Source: a virus. From it: DNA of 48,443 nucleotides. The position numbers and the translations under genes were made by a program. The stretch is taken from positions 1 through 48,443 of the IMG/VR virus record IMGVR_UViG_3300028840_000605. One strand, given 5' to 3'. Below the pieces are notes generated by a model. That model did no database searches. It was not told the DNA's origin and was given only the letters and a program-made list of their open reading frames with translations. This document shows, in pieces, positions 1 to 48,443 of this stretch (its first letter is position 1; every line of letters starts with the position of its first letter).

Positions 1-13
1 GCTTCGACAATTA
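1..13. repeat. 13-bp terminal direct repeat (left copy)
   Basis: The first 13 bases, GCTTCGACAATTA, are identical to the last 13 bases of the window (48431-48443). This is either the overlap left by closing a circular assembly or the filled-in cohesive end of a cos phage. It lies between an HNH gene and the small terminase candidate, which is where cos lies in HK97-like and lambda-like genomes. Joining the ends gives a 48,430-bp circle. Confidence 0.85.
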
Positions 14-3916: not shown

Positions 3917-4291
3917 TTAGATAAAGTCGTCCATTGAAAAATATTTAACCTTTGGCCGCCATATTTCCCGGCGGCCTTCCTTGACTTTTCTCCAGGCCCA
4001 AAGCTGAAGTTTCGTTCCCGGCGTTAACAACCAATCGACGCAAGCCGAAGATTTATTCCCGGTCATTTCTTTTAGATGACTTGAATATCCCGACGGCCCG
4101 GTCGACTGTATCCCCAAAACCCCTGAAGGCGTTAACACGATAATGTCGATTATTCCGAAAAGATCCCGGCGCTTTTTTGCGCGCGGGATCCATTGTTCGA
4201 CTTTATCAACCGGGAAACCCATTCCCCGGAAATGCTGAAGCGTTTTCGAAGTGTAGTTCGGCCGCTTCTTATTTTTCGCTAGTTCAACCAT
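3917..4291 (-). CDS. small PD-(D/E)XK nuclease-like protein (VRR-NUC / resolvase-like)
   Basis: A 124-residue protein with the layout of a minimal restriction-endonuclease fold. A basic N-terminus (about 1-40) is followed by 'RRDLFGIIDIIVL', giving the acidic Asp after the DLFG turn. Next comes 'GVLGIQSTG', the strand that normally carries (D/E)xK but here reads QxT. A helix follows, then a C-terminal 'LQLWAWRKVKEGRREIWRPKV' strand pair typical of phage proteins of this group. Related proteins act as Holliday-junction or branched-DNA nucleases, or as their inactive relatives. The replaced Glu and Lys make catalysis uncertain. It follows the iteron region and primase-helicase, and has a good AGAAAGGA start. 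Confidence 0.6.
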   Translation of the reverse strand: MVELAKNKKRPNYTSKTLQHFRGMGFPVDKVEQWIPRAKKRRDLFGIIDIIVLTPSGVLGIQSTGPSGYSSHLKEMTGNKSSACVDWLLTPGTKLQLWAWRKVKEGRREIWRPKVKYFSMDDFI

Positions 4292-4308
4292 TGGTTTCCT
4301 TTCTTCTT

Positions 4309-4335
4309 AACGGGCGCTTTTCTTTAGCGCCCGTT
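4309..4335. other. perfect 10-bp stem-loop upstream of the nuclease-like gene
   Basis: AACGGGCGCT (4309-4318) and AGCGCCCGTT (4326-4335) form a perfect 10-bp stem with a 7-base loop. Neither strand has a T-run directly after the stem, so a plain intrinsic terminator is doubtful. On the minus strand the hairpin ends just before the AGAAAGGA ribosome site of the 124-residue gene. It could be an mRNA-processing or stability hairpin, or part of the adjacent repeat-rich region. Confidence 0.6.
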
Positions 4336-4425
4336 AAAATGGTTTATAAATATTGGGAAAGGTCAACGCCTTTCCCATATATTTATATATACCCCCATTG
4401 ACCTTTGACCTTTAAAAAAATTTCG

Positions 4426-4455
4426 TTTAAAATTAGGCACTTATTAAAGGTCAAT
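4426..4455. repeat. 30-bp direct repeat, copy 1
   Basis: This segment matches 4496-4525 at 28 of 30 positions, at a 70-bp period. Both copies start TTTAAAAT, contain GCACTTATTAAAGGTCAAT and end inside an AGGTCAA iteron. It is part of the candidate origin. Confidence 0.85.
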
Positions 4456-4495
4456 GGCGATATTGACCTTATTGACCTTTGACCTTTGTTTTCCC

Positions 4496-4525
4496 TTTAA
4501 AATCAAGCACTTATTAAAGGTCAAT
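4496..4525. repeat. 30-bp direct repeat, copy 2
   Basis: Second copy of the 30-bp unit at 4426-4455, differing at two positions. A further iteron, AGGTCAA at 4530, follows immediately. The 70-bp period suggests that the block duplicated as a unit and includes the tandem TTGACCTT group between the copies. Confidence 0.85.
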
Positions 4526-4614
4526 TTAAAGGTCAATGAATATTGACCTTTGACCTTACCTTAACGCCGCCCGTTAAGGTCAATAAAATTAACCTTTAAC
4601 CTTTTCATTGACCT

Positions 4615-6699
4615 TTAAACATTATCGTTTATTTTCGTTCTTAATATGTAGGTTGTGAAATTCTTAGGATTCGTTTTAGCCGGTTTAGCTAATACATGAT
4701 ATTGTTTATTTTCTAGGATAAAATCTTTTTCAAATATCTTATTTAGATATTTTAGGATCATCCCGGAACTTTTATCAACGAAGTTATTTTCGGTCGCCAT
4801 ACGCTTTAATTCGGTAAAAGAATATTCTTTATCGTCATCGATCGCGTTATGAATTTGACAAAGAAGTTCGTTTTCCGGCGGCCGGGTTTCAACTTCGGAA
4901 AGCGTTTCTTTAAAGAATGCCTGGACGGTTTGAGTATGGGATTCTTGCAATTTGACCGACCCTTTTCCATACCATTGATTCGACGAAGATTCTTCGCCTA
5001 AATTCATCTTTGCGCTGTTTAAACTGATATGCCAACGACGGCGATCCGCGCCGCCCGGAATATTATATTTATCCGGCCCCGCTTCCTTTTCCGACATATA
5101 ATCCAGAGTATGAGCAATCCGGCAAGCCGCGCCCAGCGCCGACGCGCCACGCGCTGAATCAAGTTCCCCCCGGCCCGAATCGGATGACTTTTTCCGCGCG
5201 TGATGAACCAACGAAACCGCGGCGTAAGTTTCTTCGGCGATATACCGGAAAACTTCGGCGACGGCGTAAATATGCATATTGTCATTTTCATTTAAATTAT
5301 GGGATCCGATAAAAGGATCGATTATTAACAGCCGCGCTTTTAATTTCTTTAATATGTAAATTGTTTCGTTAACGGTTTGATCGTTGATCGTCGCCGTTTG
5401 TCCGGTTAGATCCCCACAAAATATTTTTTCCCGGTTACGCGCGGAAAAATGATAAATGTTATGACATTTCGTTTTATCAATACCATGATAAATAAAAGCC
5501 GCGGCTAACCGGCGTTCAATTTCAACTTCAGGATCTTCCATATTAAAAAGTATAACCGGTCCCGTTTCGATAACTTCATTAAAGGTTAAGTTTCGCCCGG
5601 TCGCAACGGCCAACGCTTCGAGAATTGAAAAGGAAGATTTTCCGACGCCGCCGGGCGCGATCGTCGCCGTAACAAAACCCGGCGCGAAACGATTCTGAAG
5701 TAAGAATTCACGTTGGGGAATGGTGGAGAAATCTTTTTGATTAATACATTTCAACCCGGCCGCGATCGATCCCGCCTTCCCCCAGCCGTAAAGCCGGTCA
5801 AGTTCGTCTTCCGTCATATTGGTAAAATCAACTTTCGGCGGCGGAACGATTATCGCGGGCGCGCCGAACATCGCTTCCGGCGTTTTGGATCCGGGCGCGC
5901 TATGTTTTGACTTCGCGCCGGAATTGCAAATTATCTGAAGTTCCCGATCCTTGACCGGCGGATAAACGCGTTCGAGATTCCAAAGGGATAGAAGTTCCAA
6001 CGTTTTGCCCTCTGAAAGCCCGAAATCCTTCATTTGGCAAGCCATATTGAAAAGGCTGTTATTCCTGGATCCTTTTTGAATCGGCGGTTGATTTTTTAAC
6101 CATTCCGTTACTCTAGTAACGTTATGCGGTTCGTCGAAAGTAAAGCCTTCAGGCGTCGGAAGCTGTTGAACTTCTTTTCGTTCGGTGAAGACTTTCGGCA
6201 TCCATTCAGGTATAGCGCCCAACGGACCATCTTCGACAAGTTCGTATCGCTTCCATTCGCCGGTTACTTCGTCTTTTGCGATTGATCCGGGAATCAAGAC
6301 GTATCCGCCAAGGGAACGCGAATCCAGGCCGGGAAGTTCATCGGCTTTCGTTAAGCCTAATCCTTCATAATGATAATGATACCCGTCGCCATTTGGCGTT
6401 CTAACCTTGTAATTGGTATCCGCGGATTTTGTATATTTGGCTAATTCCGCGAATCCGTTGTTCCCATGCTTCATATCGACGTCAAGAACGAACTTGTTAC
6501 TTCGGCCGCAATCAAGCGCCCAATTGCAACCGGGATACTTTGCGGCGTATTCGTGAATTTTATCAGGATCAATTGTCGCTAATTTATCTTTTCCCCAATC
6601 AAACCCGGCGAAAGGCTTTTTATTCAAGCCGACCGGGAAAACATACCAACCTTTTGACGCATAATGAAGCGCCATTTTCAACGCGGGATTCGTTTCCAT
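4615..6699 (-). CDS. replicative primase-polymerase / RecA-like helicase fusion
   Basis: A 694-residue two-domain replication protein. Residues 1-170 form a bifunctional primase/polymerase (Prim-Pol) domain: 'GWYVFPVGLNKKPF' at 17-30, catalytic pair LDVD at 72-75, and GYHYHY at 106-111. A linker with a small helical region follows. A RepA-like AAA_25 ATPase then covers about residues 330-570. Its Walker A is APGGVGKS near 347-354, followed by ILFNMEDP, Walker B 'RLLIIDP' and the motif 'VSLVHHARK'. The C-terminal ~120 residues look like winged-helix material. It should unwind DNA and lay primers at the phage origin. The ATG at 6699 has an AGGTGAT site just after the HTH gene. The iteron cluster lies directly after its stop. 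Confidence 0.88.
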   Translation of the reverse strand: METNPALKMALHYASKGWYVFPVGLNKKPFAGFDWGKDKLATIDPDKIHEYAAKYPGCNWALDCGRSNKFVLDVDMKHGNNGFAELAKYTKSADTNYKVRTPNGDGYHYHYEGLGLTKADELPGLDSRSLGGYVLIPGSIAKDEVTGEWKRYELVEDGPLGAIPEWMPKVFTERKEVQQLPTPEGFTFDEPHNVTRVTEWLKNQPPIQKGSRNNSLFNMACQMKDFGLSEGKTLELLSLWNLERVYPPVKDRELQIICNSGAKSKHSAPGSKTPEAMFGAPAIIVPPPKVDFTNMTEDELDRLYGWGKAGSIAAGLKCINQKDFSTIPQREFLLQNRFAPGFVTATIAPGGVGKSSFSILEALAVATGRNLTFNEVIETGPVILFNMEDPEVEIERRLAAAFIYHGIDKTKCHNIYHFSARNREKIFCGDLTGQTATINDQTVNETIYILKKLKARLLIIDPFIGSHNLNENDNMHIYAVAEVFRYIAEETYAAVSLVHHARKKSSDSGRGELDSARGASALGAACRIAHTLDYMSEKEAGPDKYNIPGGADRRRWHISLNSAKMNLGEESSSNQWYGKGSVKLQESHTQTVQAFFKETLSEVETRPPENELLCQIHNAIDDDKEYSFTELKRMATENNFVDKSSGMILKYLNKIFEKDFILENKQYHVLAKPAKTNPKNFTTYILRTKINDNV

Positions 6700-7371: not shown

Positions 7372-7413
7372 AAAAATAGGTAAAAAAAAATTAAAAAAAA
7401 GTCGGAAAAAAGC

Positions 7414-7482
7414 TAAAGTTTTTTTTAAAAAAATCCGATAAAACACTTGACAGGTTAAACAGATTTGTGTATTATGTATTTA
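7414..7482 (+). promoter_or_regulatory. strong early promoter PR2 (copy 1 of a repeated promoter)
   Basis: TTGACA (7447-7452), a 17-bp spacer and TATTAT (7470-7475) make a near-consensus sigma70-type promoter. Upstream are phased A- and T-tracts (7381-7437) resembling an UP element. The block 7414-7482 recurs at 9580-9648 with few differences, including an identical spacer. It should drive the gene at 7542 and beyond. Confidence 0.8.
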
Positions 7483-7541
7483 ACAGGTTAGGAAAGCAGT
7501 TCAAATCAACGGCCGAAAAGGCCAAAGAAAGGAGCAAAGAA

Positions 7542-9564: not shown

Positions 9565-9579
9565 GCCCGAAAAAAAAAT

Positions 9580-9648
9580 TAAAGTTTTTTTAAAAAAAAT
9601 CCGAAAAAACACTTGACAGGTTAAACAGATTTGTGTATTCTGTATTTA
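9580..9648 (+). promoter_or_regulatory. strong early promoter PR3 (copy 2 of the repeated promoter)
   Basis: TTGACA (9613-9618), the same 17-bp spacer as PR2, and TATTCT (9636-9641), again preceded by T- and A-tracts. The block matches 7414-7482 nearly base for base. The -10 differs by one base (TATTCT against TATTAT), which may lower its strength. It drives the DUF932 gene. Confidence 0.8.
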
Positions 9649-9703
9649 GTTGGACGGAACAAACAATTCAAACCAACGCCGAAAGGCAGAAAGGAAACAC
9701 AAA

Positions 9704-48430: not shown

Positions 48431-48443
48431 GCTTCGACAATTA
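48431..48443. repeat. 13-bp terminal direct repeat (right copy)
   Basis: Identical to bases 1-13. It lies 75 bases upstream of the small terminase start. Bases 48357-48430 hold no gene apart from the upstream end of the terminase frame. Confidence 0.85.

Follow-up and report, generated by a model that had tools for sequence, protein, structure and literature searches.

A heptamer array directly 3′ of a phage primase-helicase gene is a probable iteron-type replication origin

The crr site of P4, which its annotation describes as needed in cis for replication, is made up of two 120-bp repeats carrying 8-bp iterons in both directions and lies just 3′ of the alpha gene, whose product is reported to read it through a C-terminal winged helix (PMC4234260). 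The origin in PICIs directly follows the 3′ end of the initiator gene (PMC6092414), and SaPI Rep recognises, through its C-terminal domain, iterons that come right after its own gene (PMC7581432). In Streptococcus phage Sfi21, a 302-bp origin is annotated directly 3′ of the primase gene. Here we describe a heptamer array in a viral genome that has the location and layout of P4 crr and the location of the experimentally defined Sfi21 origin. We propose that it is probably a phage iteron-type replication origin recognised by the primase-helicase encoded beside it. The main evidence for this reading is a comparison across lineages: arrays like it, built from other words, occupy this place in dozens of phages that are only distantly related.

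The stretch of DNA analysed here (the window) is IMG/VR record IMGVR_UViG_3300028840_000605 over its full 48,443 nucleotides. The array and its surroundings comprise the following features.

3917-4291, minus strand: gene for a 124-aa protein, the first same-strand gene after the array; no Pfam match
4307-4337, unstranded: stem-loop with a 12-bp stem, TTAACGGGCGCT/AGCGCCCGTTAA, upstream of the 124-aa gene
4354-4377, unstranded: stem-loop TGGGAAAGG-TCAACG-CCTTTCCCA, overlapping the first iteron
4360-4614, both strands: iteron array with 13 exact AGGTCAA and two one-mismatch copies, the proposed origin core (copy counts, repeat analysis)
4377-4391, unstranded: all-A/T tract ATATATTTATATATA between the iterons at 4360 and 4398, a candidate unwinding element
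4397-4413, minus strand: tandem iteron pair ATTGACCTTTGACCTTT, copy 1 (repeat family D1)
4411-4435, unstranded: AT-rich tract between iterons, a second candidate unwinding element
4421-4455, plus strand: 35-bp direct repeat, copy 1, AT-rich spacer with a forward iteron (repeat family D3)
4471-4487, minus strand: tandem iteron pair, copy 2, with an extra iteron at 4463-4469 (repeat analysis)
4491-4525, plus strand: 35-bp direct repeat, copy 2, 89% identical (repeat family D3)
4542-4558, minus strand: tandem iteron pair, copy 3, 94% (repeat analysis)
4559-4579, unstranded: dyad CCTTAACG-CCGCC-CGTTAAGG (read directly and by repeat analysis)
4589-4602, minus strand: tandem degenerate iterons TTAACCT TTAACCT (one mismatch each)
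4615-6699, minus strand: gene for the 694-aa primase-helicase, the proposed initiator, with Prim-Pol, PriCT_1 and AAA_25 (RSF1010 RepA fold) domains and a predicted C-terminal winged helix
6710-6925, minus strand: gene for a 71-aa HTH protein (weak HTH_3 match) upstream of the primase gene, an alternative binder

Exact AGGTCAA occurs 18 times in the window and 13 of these copies fall within 4360-4614, 5 forward (starting at 4360, 4448, 4518, 4530 and 4577) and 8 reverse (4398, 4405, 4463, 4472, 4479, 4543, 4550 and 4608); dinucleotide-shuffled versions of the whole window contain 2.57 ± 1.64 copies, with a maximum of 7 among 100 of them. The 300-bp tile holding the array has a corrected Poisson P of 6e-25. 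Three head-to-tail pairs are spaced at exactly 7 bp (4398/4405, 4472/4479 and 4543/4550), and the one-mismatch copies AGGTTAA at 4589 and 4596 form a fourth tandem pair. At the next level, three near-copies of the 17-bp double iteron are spaced 74 and 71 bp apart. The five remaining exact copies (1112, 2602, 12810, 34167 and 40372) are single, each within an ORF. These counts against shuffles confirm the initial annotation, which had noticed 13 exact heptamers in both orientations, several of them in tandem at 7 bp. The gene-free setting, AT-rich tracts, dyad and flanking stem-loop that it described are likewise borne out: no ORF of at least 60 aa was found inside 4402-4614, and the all-A/T tract adjoins a C5/G5 run at 4392-4396. 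The 8-mers ATATATAA, TATATAAA and GGGGTATA, cited for this tract, are enriched 3′ of related primase genes. A scan of the window against Rfam at the gathering threshold returned no match, and ARAGORN found no tRNA in it.

The last iteron (4608-4614) abuts the primase-helicase stop codon at 4615, placing the array immediately 3′ of the proposed initiator gene. The region had been described as framed by this gene, which it does adjoin, but at the gene's 3′ end and not at its promoter. On the far side of the array, the 124-aa protein contains a segment, GIIDIIVLTPSGVLGIQST, that we take to be reminiscent of PD-(D/E)XK nucleases; in one related locus (L055) a gene in the same place has a weak VRR-NUC match. 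Elsewhere in the window, a promoter region is duplicated (7406-7533 and 9572-9695, 84% identical), the first copy with a near-perfect sigma-70 promoter, TTGACA-17-TATTAT, and the second with TTGACA-17-TATTCT; AGGTTAA, one mismatch from the iteron, lies in the spacer of both. The sequence GCTTCGACAATTA stands at both ends of the window (1-13 and 48431-48443), contig IMGVR_UViG_3300017971_000528 ends at exactly the same base, the large terminase is lambda-type, and the left and right ends carry an HNH nuclease gene and a small-terminase gene, respectively. Together these sequence features suggest that the window is a complete linear genome with 13-nt cohesive ends.

The sole near relative of the window is 100% identical over 11.7 kb, so the window's own lineage offers no test of conservation, and a DNA-level search of phage records returned no relative. 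With only one near relative at hand, we sought others by profile search. The discovery set comprised 45 loci, the window among them, after dereplication at 75% protein identity; each was tiled with 300-bp windows every 150 bp, and every tile was tested for a single over-represented heptamer. An array is present within 300 bp past the primase-helicase stop codon in 17 of the 45 loci, the window being one of the 17, compared with 39 of 2739 other tiles (1.4%; binomial P 3e-20). With the test fixed beforehand, we then scored hold-out loci from bacterial genomes that were less than 75% identical to anything used earlier, and found the array in 7 of 20, compared with 12 of 1340 other tiles (0.9%; P 3e-10). 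Residual relatedness among loci makes these P values optimistic, although the effect is large. The words differ from lineage to lineage (TGGGACA, AACGCCG x12, GCTCCAC x11, TATCCCA x10, GTATAAA x10, TGAACCA x8) and are arranged alike, which fits the expectation for a co-evolving protein-DNA pair. The same scan, applied to known systems, recovers P4 crr 3′ of alpha and also ori1 (at -4850); the repeats of the Sfi21 origin scored weakly (P 5e-3). The initial annotation had called the region a candidate phage origin and had proposed looking for arrays beside related primase genes. That search shows that arrays recur there and, with P4 crr and Sfi21, it supports the proposal. A further suggestion, to examine GC skew, says nothing about the array, since the shift near 7 kb coincides with a change in gene orientation.

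In over half of the related loci, no array could be detected right after the primase-helicase gene, and in some the array sits 0.5-4 kb downstream or elsewhere. Among isolates, Alteromonas phage PB15, CGphi29 and Roseobacter phage CRP-821 carry clear arrays; in BFK20, Acadian, Caulobacter RW, KYD2 and Vibrio 1.210 the same scan finds none directly 3′ of the gene. In related prophages (L078, L089, L090, L100, L104, L111, L118 and L128) one and the same CTTACGC array is found between 537 and 2757 bp beyond the 3′ end of the primase-helicase gene, a pattern that would fit the insertion of cargo genes between the two. We also searched viral contigs for TTGACCTTTGACCTTT, which gave mostly scattered single matches; the few dense matches (L005, L026, L047 and L021) are plain tandem runs away from recognisable primase genes.

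A dyad, for example CCCTTTAGGG or CCCTTATAGGG, occurs within many of the arrays. It was present no more than 330 bp from the stop codon in 11 of 22 arrayed loci of the discovery set, compared with 0.8% per 330 bp elsewhere, with the pattern picked post hoc; the hold-out has it in 8 of 20 loci, compared with 1.5% elsewhere (P 3e-10). Since the dyad was first noticed in the discovery set, the hold-out value is the one independent test. Dyads of the form CCCT[ATG]0-4AGGG lie in or beside arrays in the first 330 bp 3′ of the stop codon in L137, L146, L147, L185, L228, L231 and others. Where the array is displaced (L235 and L259) the dyad is displaced along with it, and it is also present in some loci with no array detected directly there (L150, L158 and L190). 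The window lacks the full dyad and has only a half, GGGGGTATATATAAA, adjoining an iteron. A literature search for the letters of CCCTTTAGGG found no earlier description. Our guess is that the dyad might form a hairpin for helicase loading or primer start.

Which protein reads the heptamer? The likeliest reader of the array is the primase-helicase itself. Of the two binders named by the initial annotation, it is thus the one we retain; we see no evidence linking the 71-aa HTH protein with the array. The structure model of the 694-aa protein (mean pLDDT 76, lower toward the C-terminus) matches RSF1010 RepA in its helicase part and pRN1 ORF904 in its N-terminal part, and a profile search also finds RSF1010 RepA (PDB 1g8y, E 9e-25). 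The last 95 residues are modelled, at low confidence (block pLDDT 41-67), in the order H-E-H-H-E-E, that of a winged helix; the corresponding domain of relatives reaches pLDDT 79 in its model, and most of its top structure matches are winged-helix proteins, with modest E-values (best 5e-3). The analogy of SaPI Rep and Cch2 (PMC7581432), and of P4 alpha (PMC4234260), makes this C-terminal domain the likely candidate for the part that reads the heptamer. Sequence comparison among relatives gives mixed evidence on the point. In one large family, near-identical helicases with different heptamers sometimes diverge sharply at the C-terminus: L134 and L195 are 96% identical in the helicase and 35% in the C-terminus, and their heptamers are GCTCCAC and CCGTGCA. 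Yet L134 and L140 share a heptamer despite 33% C-terminal identity. Shared heptamers are predicted with an AUC of 0.979 by the C-terminus, 0.954 by the helicase and 0.865 by Prim-Pol; in a partial test, the partial correlation with a shared heptamer was 0.32 for helicase identity against 0.16 for the C-terminus, although the C-terminal effect was also notable against permutations (13 of 2000). A change of primase type leaves the array in place: in L137 and PB15 the same helicase class is paired with a Toprim primase, and the array is still present.

We envision that the 694-aa primase-helicase would bind AGGTCAA through its C-terminal winged helix and that copies of the protein would gather on the iterons, both tandem and opposed. 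Melting would then follow in the AT-rich tracts that separate the iteron groups, and the RepA-type hexameric helicase would be loaded on the exposed strands, where the Prim-Pol domain could lay primers for the phage DNA polymerase to extend. We infer that replication starts at the array in vivo.

Other roles for the array have to be weighed against an origin. It could be an auxiliary site of the crr type, bound by the primase-helicase while replication starts at a second site, as at P4 ori1 several kb off. P4 crr is indeed the closest anatomical match: it measures about 300 bp, directly follows the primase-helicase gene, and has two direct repeats and short iterons pointing both ways. However, the second site of P4 bears the same iterons, and no second AGGTCAA cluster was found in the 48-kb window, where the other exact copies are single and intragenic. 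We consider an auxiliary role somewhat unlikely. An operator array, on which a repressor or activator such as the 71-aa HTH protein would control the left-operon promoters, would account for the likeness of TTGACC to a -35 hexamer, for a 10/12 promoter-like match on the plus strand from 4405, and for the presence of AGGTTAA in the strong promoters of both duplicated copies (7444 and 9610). The strongest promoters nevertheless lack an exact heptamer, promoter-like matches in the region number 9 against 6.7 ± 2.9 in shuffles and so show no excess, and across lineages the arrays follow the helicase gene irrespective of the next gene, all of which makes regulation an unlikely function.

Plasmid iteron arrays also serve in partition, copy-number handcuffing and recombination, and the heptamers could act in one of these ways with no role in initiation. 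Against this, experimentally defined replication sites hold the same position in P4 and Sfi21, and the gene products scanned, which covered part of the ORFs, included no recognisable partition gene; such a role seems very improbable. Least credible is a functionless repeat expansion by microsatellite-like slippage of the heptamer. Plain 7-bp AGGTCAA tandem runs do occur elsewhere, away from recognisable primase genes (L026, L005 and L047), but the copies in this array point both ways, with an ordered spacing and AT-rich DNA between them, and other lineages repeatedly have arrays of unrelated heptamers at the matching position.

A replication origin thus remains our preferred reading, and the across-lineage rule is the useful part of the finding: a heptamer array just past the primase-helicase stop codon offers a means of locating origins in many uncultured phages. 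The natural pairs of nearly identical helicases with different heptamers provide material on how an initiator reads its origin, and the comparison draws attention to the dyad within such origins. It may be, with odds somewhat below even, that phages with RecA-fold (RepA-type) primase-helicases share one origin design, in which a self-loading initiator reads, through a C-terminal winged helix, a lineage-specific heptamer array just 3′ of the gene that encodes it. The array would include a conserved dyad of the CCCTTTAGGG type, which may form a hairpin for helicase loading or primer start. If this were true, the heptamer would be a readable code linking initiator C-termini to origins.

How does the window array relate to the systems described at the outset and to plasmid replicons? 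Like P4 crr with alpha, it spans about 300 bp and directly follows a primase-helicase gene, with iterons in both orientations and internal direct repeats; P4 alpha, however, combines a Toprim primase with a D5-type helicase, whereas the window protein joins Prim-Pol to a RecA-fold RepA helicase, and P4 differs in iteron sequence and in having ori1 as a second iteron site. SaPI/PICI Rep and Pri-Rep and SCCmec Cch2 likewise have the origin 3′ of the initiator, iterons flanking AT-rich DNA and a C-terminal domain that binds them (PMC6092414, PMC7581432), binding that we propose for the window protein; their helicases are D5-like or DUF927-type and belong to satellites and cassettes (PMC7581432), whereas the window is a tailed-phage genome with a RecA-fold helicase. 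The Sfi21 origin resembles the array in being non-coding, directly 3′ of the primase gene and AT-rich at its centre, with short repeats in both orientations, but its Prim-Pol and D5-like helicase are encoded by separate genes; in the window, Prim-Pol is fused to the RepA-type helicase. pRN1 ORF904 shares a Prim-Pol replication protein, a C-terminal winged helix (predicted in the window) and an origin 3′ of the gene, although there the origin lacks iterons, being a large stem-loop, and the helicase belongs to SF3 (PMC4234260); the window region has short stem-loops only, none of the pRN1 type of about 100 bp, and has iterons instead. RSF1010 oriV pairs a RepA-type helicase with an iteron origin, but divides the work among RepA, RepB′ and RepC, with RepC reading the iterons (PMC4234260), whereas primase, helicase and proposed reader are one polypeptide in the window. 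No RepC-like product, and no separate RepC/RepB′ arrangement, was recognised among the gene products scanned, which covered part of the ORFs.

By place, and by its many short iterons, which run in both orientations in sets separated by AT-rich DNA, the array resembles the P4/PICI origins. The initiator helicase of that group is AAA+/SF3 (D5), whereas that of the window is AAA_25 with the RSF1010 RepA fold, and because it is RecA-fold we do not file the array as a member. The best reading, by analogy, is that it works like P4 crr and the SaPI/PICI origins while standing outside formal membership. The design is already known; its combination with a RecA-fold helicase is new, and extends the P4/PICI origin design to helicases that in RSF1010 require a separate reader protein.
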